64,000 nucleotides of DNA, taken from assembly GCF_000447795.1 (NCBI RefSeq), contig NZ_AUNI01000021.1:62001-126000 (forward strand), read 5' to 3'. Source of the DNA: Bacteriovorax sp. Seq25_V. Its GTDB lineage: Bacteria; Bdellovibrionota; Bacteriovoracia; Bacteriovoracales; Bacteriovoracaceae. Below, piece by piece: positions 12,868-62,307 of the stretch. How positions within the stretch are numbered: the first letter of the stretch is position 1; every line of letters starts with the position of its first letter. The position numbers and the translations under genes were made by a program. The notes beneath the pieces were generated by a model. The model was not told where the DNA came from. It did no database searches and saw only the letters and a list, made by a program, of their open reading frames with translations.

Positions 12868-13008
12868 AATTTTCTCCACGACTCTATTTTACACATTTAC
12901 TCAATATCATCCAGCTCAATTTACTTGAGTATTTCGCTTCATCTTTCTTTGTTCGACCTTTCCATTTTTTTATCATAAAATTAGATAAAATTTAATCTCG
13001 GAGATAAC

Positions 13009-38870: not shown

Positions 38871-38922
38871 TGATTACTTACTCCGAAGCTGAATAGTTAA
38901 TTGTTGAAATATTTTTTCCTAT

Positions 38923-38951
38923 TTTCTAATCTTTAAAGGCGATTAAGTCAA
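38923..38951 (-). promoter_or_regulatory. Promoter of the atp operon
   Basis: On the minus strand TTGACT (38951-38946) and TAGAAA (38928-38923) are 17 nt apart, about 50 nt upstream of the b' start, in a 106-bp gap without genes. Confidence 0.6.
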
Positions 38952-38976
38952 GATGAAACGGACTATGTGCATTGCA

Positions 38977-47356: not shown

Positions 47357-47584
47357 TTTCAACCTACCTATTTAAATTACAGTTTGAATAAAATGTTTTA
47401 TTAGAAGCATACTTTTATACTCTCTGGCCCATTAGGTCAATCAGGAAAATATATATTTCATATAAACGACTAATTTTTTTGGCCATGCACAAGAAACATA
47501 TTTTTTTGTATGGCCACCTTTTTTGGGCCATGTTACATAAATGCTCCACACACACGAAGAACACACAATTTGGAGAACATAAAG
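47357..47584. promoter_or_regulatory. rpmH-dnaA intergenic region with four GGCC sites
   Basis: 228 bp. It must hold the dnaA promoter, but no convincing -35/-10 pair was fixed on the plus strand. GGCC occurs at 47426, 47481, 47512 and 47526, within about 104 bp of very AT-rich sequence. No good DnaA box was seen. Confidence 0.6.
47412..47440 (-). promoter_or_regulatory. Candidate rpmH promoter
   Basis: On the minus strand TTGACC (47440-47435) and TAAAAG (47417-47412) are 17 nt apart (or TATAAA at 15 nt), about 55 nt upstream of rpmH. A GGCC site falls in the spacer. Confidence 0.4.
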
Positions 47585-49129
47585 ATGCAAGGAAACTTTC
47601 CTTTTAGCCAATTCTTGAAATCAGGCAACAGTATCAATAATTTCGACCACTTAAGCAATATTCCAGTTTCCACTCCTACCAATAATCAAGAGCTTATTGG
47701 CGACTTTGACGTGGAAGAAATCGAAATGATGAACCAAGAGATTCACAAGGTTCTACAAAACTCTGTAACTACTCAAAAATACACAGCTTTTTTTGAAGGT
47801 TCATTCAATTTAAAGACTATCAATCAAGGAACAGCCATTTTCACTGTTCCTACTCAATTTATTAAGTCAATGGTTGAAAAGAATCTTCCACAGATCTCAG
47901 AGTCAATTTTTTCAATTCTAGGCAAGCAATATCAAATAGATATAAGCGTTGAGGGAACAGCAGATCAACAAACTGCCCCTATAGAACCGCCAAAGGCAAG
48001 ATCTGCAGCTGAAGTCTCATTCAAGCTAGATCTTGAGCCAAAGAAAGAAGACCTACTCTCTAAAGTAGAAAGTAAATATATTGACCACATCAACCCTGAA
48101 CACACGGGAATTCTAATCGACCCCGTGAAGAAGTTCACAAATTTTGTTGTTGGACCATCAAATAATATGGCCTACGCGGCAGCCCTAGCGATCGCAAAAC
48201 ATCCAGGTAAAGCAGGGAAATATCCATCCTTATATATCCACAGTAATTCAGGGCTTGGTAAAACTCACCTACTCCATGCAATTGCTAATGGAGCGAAGGA
48301 GAATTATCCGCATTTCATCATTTGTCTTATTACAGCTAGAGATTTTATGAGAGAGATGATCGATGCAATTAAAGCAGAACAATTACACGAATTCAGAAAG
48401 AAGTATTCTGAGAAAGTTGATATCTTAATGATCGATGACGTTCATGAGTTAAAAGGACGTGAAGGAACTCAAAGAGAATTCTTTCATATCTTTAATGAGC
48501 TATACAATAAAGGTAAGCAGCTTATCTTTACGTCTGATAAGACTCCACAGGAGATTAATGGACTTGAAGAACGCATTAGAACAAGGTTGCAATGGGGTCT
48601 TGTTGTAGACATCCAAAAACCAGATTTTGAGACTCGTACGGCCATCATTAAAACGAAAGCTGACGAACTCGACCTATTTTTGTCTGATGACATTATTAAT
48701 CTTATCGCTTGTAACGTTAAAAATAGTATCAGAGAGCTTGAAGGATCATTAATTAAGCTATCAGCATATACAGACATCATGAAGGTCGATATCGACATTG
48801 AAATGGTTAAAGATGTACTTGCATTGAAAGAACATGAAGACGAAAGAAAGGTAACACTAGAAATCGTTGCAAAAACTACATCACATCATTTCAGAATACC
48901 AATTGCTGATCTCAAGTCTAAATCGCGTACCAAAGATATTGCCAACGCAAGATTCATTGCGATGTACCTTTCTCGTAAGATTGTTGGTGCTACCCATGAA
49001 GAAATTGGAAAATTCTATGGTGGACGTGATCATAGCTCTGTTGTTCACGCGGAACAAAAAATTACAAAACAATTAAGCAGTGACTCACAACTCTCAAGAG
49101 ACGTGATGACAATTGAAAATTCACTGTAA
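47585..49129 (+). CDS. dnaA: Replication initiator DnaA
   Basis: 514 residues from ATG 47585, with GGAG 9 nt upstream. A 75-nt longer frame exists but has no ribosome site. A non-conserved N-terminal extension of about 47 residues precedes domain I (MNQEIHKVLQNSV...). An alternative start at Met48 (47726) would remove it. Linker domain II (about 120-160) carries APIEP at 131-135, from a palindrome copy. AAA+ Walker A NSGLGKTH at 221-228, Walker B LMIDDVHEL, domain IV DNA-binding signature GGRDHSSVVHA (usually GGRDHSTVLHA). Confidence 0.97.
   Translation: MQGNFPFSQFLKSGNSINNFDHLSNIPVSTPTNNQELIGDFDVEEIEMMNQEIHKVLQNSVTTQKYTAFFEGSFNLKTINQGTAIFTVPTQFIKSMVEKNLPQISESIFSILGKQYQIDISVEGTADQQTAPIEPPKARSAAEVSFKLDLEPKKEDLLSKVESKYIDHINPEHTGILIDPVKKFTNFVVGPSNNMAYAAALAIAKHPGKAGKYPSLYIHSNSGLGKTHLLHAIANGAKENYPHFIICLITARDFMREMIDAIKAEQLHEFRKKYSEKVDILMIDDVHELKGREGTQREFFHIFNELYNKGKQLIFTSDKTPQEINGLEERIRTRLQWGLVVDIQKPDFETRTAIIKTKADELDLFLSDDIINLIACNVKNSIRELEGSLIKLSAYTDIMKVDIDIEMVKDVLALKEHEDERKVTLEIVAKTTSHHFRIPIADLKSKSRTKDIANARFIAMYLSRKIVGATHEEIGKFYGGRDHSSVVHAEQKITKQLSSDSQLSRDVMTIENSL
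47974..47989. repeat. Degenerate copy of the 16-bp palindrome in dnaA linker
   Basis: TGCCCCTATAGAACCG, half-conserved, in the codons of the domain II linker; read in the same frame as the mnmE copies (PIEP versus SIEP). Confidence 0.6.
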
Positions 49130-49165
49130 AATACCTGATAAATTCACATAACAATTTAATAAACC

Positions 49166-49395
49166 TGACTAGTCACGGCCCTGTTAACGCAGGGCCTTTT
49201 TATTTTCCACGGCCAATAGAAAGTTATCAACAAAAATGACTAGTCAATGTGAATAATATTTTCTTATAATTACAGAGACTTAGTGTATATATCAAGAAAT
49301 TATCACCGGCCGTGGATAAAATATAATTAACGGCCTCAACATGTGAATAGAAAAGTTATCAACAAGTGGATAAAATGTTGGGCCATGACTAGTCA
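49166..49395. repeat. Three copies of palindrome TGACTAGTCA around oriC
   Basis: Exact 10-bp copies at 49166-49175, 49237-49246 and 49386-49395. The first precedes the dnaA terminator stem; the other two lie among DnaA boxes. Confidence 0.8.
49177..49205 (+). terminator. dnaA terminator
   Basis: Stem GGCCCTG/CAGGGCC with a 6-nt TTAACG loop followed by TTTTTATTTT, 48 nt after the dnaA stop. Confidence 0.85.
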
Positions 49396-49724
49396 AAATA
49401 GACAAAAAGACGACATTGAAAAGAATCGAATAAATATTAACTATTGGCCGTGAATAACTATCTTAAAAACGTCAATAATTGTTCAAAAACTTTTAATATA
49501 CGCATGATGCAAAAAGTTAGAAAATAGTTTACAACGGCCGTCAACATAGGCCAAAATTTGATAAAGCAATACCACAAGGGTGTTTAAGGCTTTTAAACTT
49601 ATCCACAAAGTAATATATATAATAATATAAATATATATATAAAGAGAAAGAGAGTAAGAGCCTTGCTTACTTGAAAAAAGAAATATAAAAACTACTAAGA
49701 TTATTTGAACGTATAGGAATTGAA
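49206..49724. other. Replication origin oriC
   Basis: 519-bp gene-free region between dnaA and dnaN. DnaA-box-like 9-mers: 49224-49232 (+, TTATCAACA), 49248-49256 (-, TTATTCACA), 49300-49308 (+, weak), 49311-49319 (-, TTATCCACG), 49342-49350 (-, one mismatch), 49356-49364 (+) and 49365-49373 (-) back to back, 49449-49457 (-, TTATTCACG), 49599-49607 (+, perfect TTATCCACA). Immediately after the last box lies an almost pure A/T tract (about 49608-49650), a good unwinding element. Seven GGCC sites and two TGACTAGTCA palindromes lie between. Gene directions diverge from here. Confidence 0.9.
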
Positions 49725-50837
49725 ATGCAGATAACGGTACAATCTGAAAATTTAAGAGATGCACTTGGTAAGATACTTACTGTAGTAGATAAAAGAAATT
49801 CACGTCCAATATTAACATACACACTATTCACTGTTAGTAATGATAAAATATATTTATCAGCAACAGATCTTGAAGTATCAGCAAAATATTCTCTAAACGC
49901 AAAAACAGATGGGAATGCTAGCTTCTGTATTAATTCAAAAAACTTATTTGATATATTAAAAGAACTTCCTAACACAGATATCCACATCACGTTGGAAGAT
50001 GGTGAAAATCTCCTAAAAATAAATTGCAATGATATTCATTACTCACTTCTAATTTATGAAAGTGAAGAGTATCCAAAACTACATTTTGGAACTGAGAATA
50101 CTTTTGAAATTAATTCAGACAAACTATTAGATCTAATTAATAAAACTTCATATGCAATCTCGAACGATGAAACAAGACTTCACTTCAATGGAATCTACCT
50201 ACAAGAAGTTGAATCAAAACTGAGAGCAGTAGCAACTGATGGACATAGACTTTCACTAATTGAATTAGATCTAGCTGAACAAAATAACGAAGCACTTGTT
50301 AATGGAATTATTATTCCTAAGAAAGGTGTATTTGAATTAAAGAAAGTTGCTGAATCATATCCAGATCAAACATTAAGAATTTCACTTGATGAATCTTACA
50401 TGTATATCGAAGCAAAAGAAGAGTACCATATTGGTATTAGATTAATTGCTAGAGAATATCCAAAATACCAATCAGTAATTCCAGGTAAGACGACATTCAC
50501 ATTAACAGCTGACAAAGAAGCTATCTTTAATGCTGTTAAGAGAATTAAAATTATGTCGAATGAAAAGTCTAACGGTATTAAAGTTTTAATCAAAGATAAC
50601 TCACTAACAGTTATGGCAAACCACCCATCACTTGGTGATGCAAGAGAGACAATTCCAGTAGATTACGAAGGTAAAGAAATGGAAATTGGATTTAATGCAA
50701 AATACTTAATGGATTCATTTTCAATTTTAGATTCTGAAGACATTATCCTTGAATTAAATAACGAACTAAGTCCTGTATTAGTAAGATCAAATAATTTACA
50801 GAATTATCTTGGTATTATTATGCCACTTAGAATTTGA
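49725..50837 (+). CDS. dnaN: DNA polymerase III beta sliding clamp
   Basis: 370 residues forming one half of the ring that tethers DNA polymerase III. Starts MQITVQSENLRDALGKI; three repeats of the clamp fold; ATDLEVSA, ATDGHRLSLIE and the C-terminal LVRSNNLQNYLGIIMPLRI. AGGA 6 nt before ATG. Stop overlaps the recF start by 1 nt. Confidence 0.97.
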   Translation: MQITVQSENLRDALGKILTVVDKRNSRPILTYTLFTVSNDKIYLSATDLEVSAKYSLNAKTDGNASFCINSKNLFDILKELPNTDIHITLEDGENLLKINCNDIHYSLLIYESEEYPKLHFGTENTFEINSDKLLDLINKTSYAISNDETRLHFNGIYLQEVESKLRAVATDGHRLSLIELDLAEQNNEALVNGIIIPKKGVFELKKVAESYPDQTLRISLDESYMYIEAKEEYHIGIRLIAREYPKYQSVIPGKTTFTLTADKEAIFNAVKRIKIMSNEKSNGIKVLIKDNSLTVMANHPSLGDARETIPVDYEGKEMEIGFNAKYLMDSFSILDSEDIILELNNELSPVLVRSNNLQNYLGIIMPLRI

Positions 50838-59403: not shown

Positions 59404-59413
59404 ATACTCCAAT

Positions 59414-59471
59414 CTGTAAAAAATACAGTATCTTAGAATCACTCTGAGATTATTTCATCCCAGTCTGGGAT
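59414..59471. promoter_or_regulatory. Two palindromes upstream of the HTH regulator
   Basis: CTGTA-N5-TACAG at 59414-59428 and ATCCCAG-T-CTGGGAT at 59457-59471 in the otherwise AT-rich 240-bp gap. Both are typical sizes for repressor operators; an autoregulatory role for the downstream HTH protein is a guess. Confidence 0.4.
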
Positions 59472-59591
59472 ATTCTCGCAAAATCCATTTACGAAATATA
59501 AATACTTTATCAATAAAAAAAGCTTGTAACTTATACTTACTTTGGATTCATAGCGTCATTTTGTTGTATAAGTCGGTTTCGAGGTGAACAA

Positions 59592-61883: not shown

Positions 61884-62307
61884 ATGTTAATAATAACTAA
61901 ATAAATGTCACTTGTGAGAATCATTGAAATCTTTAACTAGGGTGTTCAAAGTTTAGACAATCTACTGAAAATACAATGTACTTTCAATAACTTAGGGAGA
62001 TGTTAAAAATAGATAGCTTGCAAAGAACCTTGTTAATTCCCCGTTTTGCTTCTTGCGCCAATGAAGGCGCCTCAAAAGAGGTAATTCATAGAGGAATTAA
62101 CAAGGTTGTTAAAACTTCTTGTGATCATTATTCAGATAATAATCTGGATAGTTGAATACAAGAAGGGATAACGTAATTAAGGTGAGTACAAGCCTACTCA
62201 CCTTTCCCTTGTTTAATATATCATTCAATATTGAAGTGACCAAATTATATAAAAAAGTATCCTGGAACCTAATGGATAAAACGTGTAAATTACGATAGTC
62301 TACTTGA
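61884..62307. other. Gene-free region with strong RNA-like structure
   Basis: 424 bp without a convincing gene. The 62020-62215 part holds a nested set of inverted repeats (see the ncRNA entry). The flanks are AT-rich, with possible promoter bits (TACAAT at 61970). GGCC does not occur here. Confidence 0.7.
62020..62215 (+). ncRNA. Candidate structured RNA or cis-regulatory leader
   Basis: Perfect 15-bp closing stem: AACCTTGTTAATTCC (62026-62040) with GGAATTAACAAGGTT (62093-62107). Inside it are hairpins GCGCC/GGCGC (62055-62059, 62066-62070) and CCTC/GAGG (62070-62073, 62078-62081). A second domain is closed by CTTCTTGT/ACAAGAAG (62115-62122, 62158-62165). It ends in the 10-bp hairpin AAGGTGAGTA/TACTCACCTT (62179-62204) followed by TCCCTTGTTT, terminator-like. 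It resembles none of the RNAs I know (not 6S, SRP, tmRNA, RNase P, c-di-GMP). May be a separate small RNA or a leader of the gene at 62308. Confidence 0.55.

Follow-up and report, generated by a model that had tools for sequence, protein, structure and literature searches.

Why should a four-base palindrome, GGCC, be crowded into the non-coding DNA around the replication initiator gene of Bacteriovorax sp. Seq25_V, and could it be a site at which the DNA is marked to control initiation? In E. coli both oriC and the promoter of dnaA are rich in GATC, which serves control by Dam and SeqA. An earlier note on the 64-kb stretch of DNA analysed here (the window) had proposed a similar mark based on GGCC, made by a methyltransferase of HaeIII type or read by a GGCC-binding protein.

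GGCC at the dnaA promoter and origin

The source genome is 3.45 Mb, in 21 contigs. In the window a yidC-like gene, rnpA and rpmH on the minus strand are followed by dnaA and dnaN on the plus strand, and cumulative GC skew, computed over the window in 1-kb steps, is lowest at 47-48 kb. The predicted origin of H. marinus is likewise the dnaA-dnaN intergenic region (PMC5124646). The longest dnaA ORF (47510-49129) encloses the GGCC at 47512 and 47526; homology to relatives begins at about its residue 26, which makes the ATG at 47585 the most likely start and leaves all four upstream GGCC non-coding. The features of the locus are:

47357-47584, plus strand: rpmH-dnaA intergenic region with the dnaA promoter, four GGCC; its end is set by the homology-based dnaA start
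47426-47429, no strand: GGCC, adjoining AGGTCAAT (47434-47441)
47481-47484, no strand: GGCC, kept in four of five aligned relatives (TTTGGCCATGC)
47512-47515, no strand: GGCC, 5' of the likely dnaA start
47526-47529, no strand: GGCC, 5' of the likely dnaA start, kept in four of five aligned relatives
47585-49129, plus strand: dnaA, initiator (Pfam Bac_DnaA and Bac_DnaA_C)
49130-49724, no strand: dnaA-dnaN intergenic region, likely oriC, nine GGCC and several DnaA boxes
49177-49196, plus strand: dnaA terminator stem GGCCCTGTTAACGCAGGGCC, containing two GGCC (49177, 49193)
49203-49214, plus strand: composite of DnaA box and GGCC, TTTTCCAC-GGCC, GGCC at 49211
49308-49319, minus strand: composite of DnaA box and GGCC, TTATCCAC-GGCC on the reverse strand, GGCC at 49308
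49332-49335, no strand: GGCC
49381-49384, no strand: GGCC, absent at the aligned position in relatives
49446-49457, minus strand: composite of DnaA box and GGCC, TTATTCAC-GGCC on the reverse strand, GGCC aligned in four of five relatives
49536-49539, no strand: GGCC
49549-49552, no strand: GGCC
49599-49607, plus strand: perfect DnaA box TTATCCACA, without GGCC
49725-50837, plus strand: dnaN, sliding clamp (Pfam DNA_pol3_beta)

All 13 GGCC are where the earlier note had placed them, four at 47426-47526 and nine at 49177-49549, in about 0.83 kb. Its estimate that less than one would be expected holds for base composition (0.44) and fails for an intergenic null (about 2.0). Composition is too weak a null, because GGCC is over-represented both across the genome (1.8x) and in other intergenic DNA. 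The note's impression of GGCC as missing away from the origin was drawn from a few short regions; the four it named (59404-59591, 61884-62307, 12868-13008 and 38871-38976) are indeed empty, and the general claim does not stand. Our intergenic background was sampled from about 13% of the genome, the window plus another 400 kb, and held 46 GGCC in 140 stretches totalling 19 kb, which is 2.4 per kb or 3.8x composition. Against it the 13 sites at the origin have P = 2e-7, and P = 4e-6 with a pessimistic background. No other sampled intergenic stretch has more than three GGCC. GGCC is thus raised elsewhere, which in part is what the note had said would refute its proposal, yet the density at the origin is still about 6.5-fold that of this genome's other intergenic DNA.

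Two further sequence elements were seen here. AGGTCAA(T) (AGGTCAAT) lies 5' of dnaA on the same strand, is kept in the regions of 51 of 84 relatives and often runs straight into GGCC, as AGGTCAATGGCC. The palindrome TGACTAGTCA has three copies in oriC (49166-49175, 49237-49246 and 49386-49395), and its core, GACTAGTC, is also found in the origins of four other genomes, with ten copies in all against 0.6 expected in the 89 origin sets described below. This palindrome is possibly a second, putative binding site.

Conservation across the class and composite DnaA boxes

The sample of the class Bacteriovoracia comprised 129 genomes, all of one family. The rpmH-dnaA and dnaA-dnaN regions of 89 genomes served as origin sets; 88 of these genomes, the source among them, belong to the class and one is an outgroup. 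These pooled origins hold 399 GGCC against 45 expected, and the control palindromes CCGG (46) and GCGC (57) are near expectation in the same sets, so that it is GGCC rather than overall G+C that is conserved at orthologous origins, the point on which the note had asked for a check. GGCC ranks first of 136 tetramers in the origins of about 25 genomes. The richest origins carry 22 sites (G003 and G118), followed by 17 (G001), 14 (G018), 13 (the source genome) and 12 (G015); in between about a third and 40% of genomes the origin has little or no GGCC. Outgroup origins (20 regions from the phylum) hold 45 against 29 expected, which we do not call enriched. In aligned relatives most of the oriC positions turn over and the density persists.

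The element is also strictly defined. In 33 GGCC-rich regions no flanking position of GGCC exceeds 0.13 bit of information, and sequences one mismatch away are at or under expectation, except GGGC/GCCC, which itself overlaps GGCC. By these criteria of sequence the origin element is an exact 4-bp palindrome, like the site of a methyltransferase and unlike the motif of a typical regulator or transcription factor. The class origins are depleted in GATC (66 against 193 expected). A deamination signature, GGTC/GACC, gave no signal at oriC, at 0.85 of expectation, a value itself inflated by the conserved AGGTCAAT.

Some of the sites are fused to DnaA boxes. With the box octamer defined as T[TGA][ATG]T[CT]CAC, 43 of 598 octamers in all origins run on as GGCC (the TTATCCAC-GGCC type), in 10 of 46 genera; the binomial P against local GGCC frequency is about 1e-31, for sequences that are not independent of one another. 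Outside origins no octamer did so, in 361 from this genome's background and 309 from 18 other genomes of the class (0 of 670). Where the ninth base of a box is G, it lies within GGCC in 43 of 53 cases (81%). The window has three such composites, in each of which the final base of a variant DnaA box also belongs to GGCC: the earlier note had recognised those at 49308 and 49446, and its count is completed by the one at 49211. In the origins of GGCC-rich relatives the commonest spacing of successive GGCC is 11 bp (18 cases), for example GGCC-aatccac-GGCC, where a box lies between two GGCC.

An orphan methyltransferase and a genome-wide GGCC layer

An orphan cytosine methyltransferase, the kind of enzyme that the note had proposed to look for, was found outside the window, on the minus strand of contig C8 of the source genome (5735-6886). 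The enzyme, of 383 aa, is a C5-methyltransferase of family PF00145 (Pfam E 3e-75; TIGR00675 above cut-off), and its canonical motifs FSGAGG, PPCQ, ENV, RRR and GNAVPP are all invariant in a three-sequence alignment. It is the sole PF00145 match in this genome, which has no PF01555 enzyme. It is present in 126 of the 129 class genomes, in all 73 of the good ones and in all 48 genera; in the rest of the phylum two of 22 genomes match it, both weakly. The origin cluster is missing where the enzyme is missing, in the outgroup, which is a single evolutionary contrast.

The gene is flanked on one side by a Ppx/GppA-like gene and on the other by a 201-aa gene that adjoins a tRNA-thiouridylase-like gene; relatives share part of this order. 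Its neighbours in five genomes are Ppx/GppA, an unnamed gene, an MnmA-like gene, a kinase, a hydrolase, an MFS transporter and a protease, with no restriction gene adjacent in any of the five, although one may lie farther away. In four genomes (L217:6952-7557, L218:6419-7051, L220:4425-5273 and L221:6136-6924) the methyltransferase adjoins a short gene read in the same direction, whose product of 201-282 aa matches nothing in Pfam and is possibly its partner. One relative (G015, the genome of L004) has three full-length copies of the methyltransferase, with 69, 54 and 51% identity to the source enzyme.

M.HaeIII is among the enzyme's best PDB matches. As yardsticks we used C5-methyltransferases from a Neisseria gonorrhoeae record, one of which we take to be M.NgoPII. 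The recognition region common to M.HaeIII and M.NgoPII, IFMSRNRV..FTVQASGRQCQLHP, is missing from the enzyme, which instead has FRQTKYQRLD..SPTIMTHRHSYYHP, and we do not place it in the HaeIII/NgoPII family. Because the region differs from both, the specificity of the enzyme is not given by homology. Plasmid and phage homologues with restriction partners were no better guide, at 26-39% identity; one partner is of the NotI family, whose site, GCGGCCGC, includes GGCC, and the others were uninformative. The recognition regions in the class fall into classes A, B and C, with GGCC enrichment at oriC of 12.6x, 5.9x and 2.1x. We rejected this division as a predictor of the enrichment; it probably follows phylogeny, and the strong genome-wide GGCC bias of class C genomes leaves a shift of specificity there without support.

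That bias is a second layer. In 460 kb outside oriC there are 852 GGCC against 470 expected from trimers (1.81x), and GGCC is the outlier of the 16 tetranucleotide palindromes, the others lying at 0.84-1.22x. Of 18 other class genomes, 17 have it at 1.35-3.0x, and two outgroups are at 1.05 and 0.95. In coding DNA the choice between the alanine codons GCC and GCT falls on GCC 64% of the time when the preceding base is G and 16-23% of the time when it is not. A two-fold codon has G as its third base in 65% of cases if GCC follows, compared with 21-35% if a different alanine codon does; and leucine after GGC takes a codon starting with C in 57% against 28-44%. As three codon positions agree, the effect is on DNA and not on translation. 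Most sampled class genomes share this drive (alanine 0.67-1.00 against 0.13-0.49), which is weak in G058 and G022 and absent in the outgroups sampled.

The drive hits the outer base pair of GGCC, and the inner shows little. Selection for GGCC as such would be expected at the inner positions as well, and a bias of mutation or repair is therefore the likelier source of the coding layer. Elhai proposed biased mutation or repair for the cyanobacterial HIP palindromes (PMC4390886). Repair by Vsr was rejected as the cause, the Vsr endonuclease (PF03852) being missing here and present in 5 of 129 class genomes; this genome has two HhH-GPD glycosylase genes. At the extreme of the drive, GGCT/AGCC has nearly gone from 20-kb stretches of two genomes (6 copies in L255 of G029 and 19 in L249 of G033, both strands), and GGCC is plentiful in the same stretches (42 and 152). 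This layer points to a special place for GGCC in the DNA metabolism of the class and indirectly backs it as the target of the universal enzyme. The co-occurrence of enzyme and bias counts as a single event, because both arose together once, on one branch.

GGCC as a candidate mark and its place among known systems

On balance, and with modest confidence, we favour the reading that GGCC is a DNA-mark site in Bacteriovoracia, most likely 5-methylcytosine made by the class-universal orphan enzyme, which clusters at oriC and in the promoter of dnaA and tunes initiation; we infer the methylation, the enzyme's target and the response of initiation. The orphan enzyme would methylate GGCC, and through the clusters both initiation and the expression of dnaA would respond to the hemimethylation that follows replication. 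Once the fork has passed, the difference between full and hemimethylation would adjust the binding of DnaA and the expression of its gene, on the same principle as Dam and GATC. Not every genome follows this pattern: G019, G022, G014, G101, G027 and G029 are among many that have the enzyme and no excess of GGCC at oriC, and G058 retains the enzyme with little GGCC bias.

Because a methyl group would sit on the ninth box position or next to it, the composite boxes offer a direct route from mark to initiator. The ninth base of a DnaA box is normally A, paired with T. In the composites the first G of GGCC replaces this A, and methylation of the outer C on the other strand might mimic the methyl group of the consensus thymine, so that methylation would create or destroy DnaA binding and oriC would be a switch that reads 5-methylcytosine directly, with no separate reader. 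We regard this as speculative and distinctly unlikely. The coding drive in this genome, being on the outer and not the inner C, fits outer-C methylation without demonstrating it.

GGCC at oriC might instead be a protein-binding element without methylation, read by a class-specific protein or by DnaA itself, TTATCCAC-GGCC being a variant or overlapping site. In GGCC-rich origins about 30% of GGCC abut a box octamer, against 4% of other positions, and the recurrence of AGGTCAATGGCC 5' of dnaA and the genomes that retain the enzyme without GGCC at oriC agree with such binding. However, about 70% of the sites are not beside a box, flanks almost free of information and intolerance of single mismatches are unusual for a binding protein, and the bias of coding sequence towards GGCC is left unexplained. 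We think protein binding without methylation unlikely.

The same drive raises the question of whether the origin cluster is a by-product, GGCC building up genome-wide through biased mutation or repair and appearing strong at oriC where the DNA is long, non-coding and poorly constrained. The 1.4-3.0x excess in nearly all sampled class genomes, the preference for GCC in alanine codons after G (64% against 16-23%) and the 3.8x excess in other intergenic DNA are what it would produce, and it is the likely explanation of the genome-wide layer. The roughly 6.5-fold excess of oriC over the same genome's intergenic DNA and the confinement of composite boxes to oriC argue against it there. Origin enrichment and genome-wide bias are also decoupled in G033, G029 and G025; as G033 and G029 are strongly biased with almost no GGCC at oriC, the genome-wide layer does not explain oriC. 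For the origin the by-product reading is largely refuted, and we consider it quite improbable. A structural role, as hairpin stems or local G+C clamps flanking the unwinding region, is very improbable: two sites make the dnaA terminator stem, and are probably explained by that hairpin rather than by a mark, and hairpins hold 29 of the 46 background intergenic GGCC, but by the same test 6 of the 13 origin sites lie outside hairpins, including most oriC sites beyond the terminator, and GCGC and CCGG, which would be equally good clamps, are not enriched.

The favoured methylation mark resembles the Dam/GATC/SeqA system of Enterobacteria in its dense 4-bp palindrome at oriC and the dnaA promoter, its solitary, clade-conserved methyltransferase and the partial overlap of its sites with DnaA boxes. 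It differs in having a cytosine-C5 rather than an adenine enzyme and GGCC rather than GATC, which is depleted here. M.HaeIII and M.NgoPII are GGCC methyltransferases of restriction-modification systems; they share the PF00145 C5-methyltransferase fold with our enzyme, which is an orphan without the IFMSRNRV..FTVQASGRQCQLHP region and with no adjacent restriction enzyme found.

Blow et al. 2016 described origin motif clusters with orphan methyltransferases for GATC, TTAA (Arthrobacter), CTCGAG (Nocardia) and CTAG (Haloarchaea) (PMC4752239). As in their cases, a conserved non-coding origin cluster, which in the two actinobacterial ones lies beside dnaA, goes with a conserved orphan methyltransferase (PMC4752239). 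Their motifs were known from methylomes and ours comes from sequence alone; here the enzyme is of the PF00145 (m5C) type, the clade is new, the motif is fused to DnaA boxes and there is a genome-wide layer. They also note that m5C methyltransferases are hard to detect by SMRT sequencing (PMC4752239). Cyanobacterial HIP1 likewise combines a genome-wide palindrome excess with a solitary cytosine methyltransferase of the clade, but it is an 8-mer, the over-representation of the 4-bp GGCC is weaker (1.4-3x), and the portion of Elhai 2015 at hand describes no concentration of HIP1 at origins such as GGCC shows here (PMC4390886). Synechocystis mutants that lack the GG(m4C)C methylation made by M.Ssp6803II have phenotypes in replication and repair, which again links GGCC to replication; that enzyme is an N4-cytosine methyltransferase, unlike any here, where PF01555 is lacking, and its paper never mentions oriC or dnaA (PMC6560206).

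Our searches of open-access literature found no earlier report of GGCC or 5-methylcytosine at an origin in this group. If the favoured reading is true, this may be the first case, none earlier having been found in that literature, of 5-methylcytosine in the role that adenine methylation has for Dam and CcrM. The genome-wide layer adds an independent case on the build-up of palindromes around solitary methyltransferases, and composites such as TTATCCACGGCC allow the direct question of whether methylation alters initiator binding. A paper on the architecture of the B. bacteriovorus origin names its regulators among the things yet to be discovered (PMC5124646), and a GGCC mark shared by the class, at oriC and in the promoter of dnaA, is a testable epigenetic candidate for the timing of replication in these predators.
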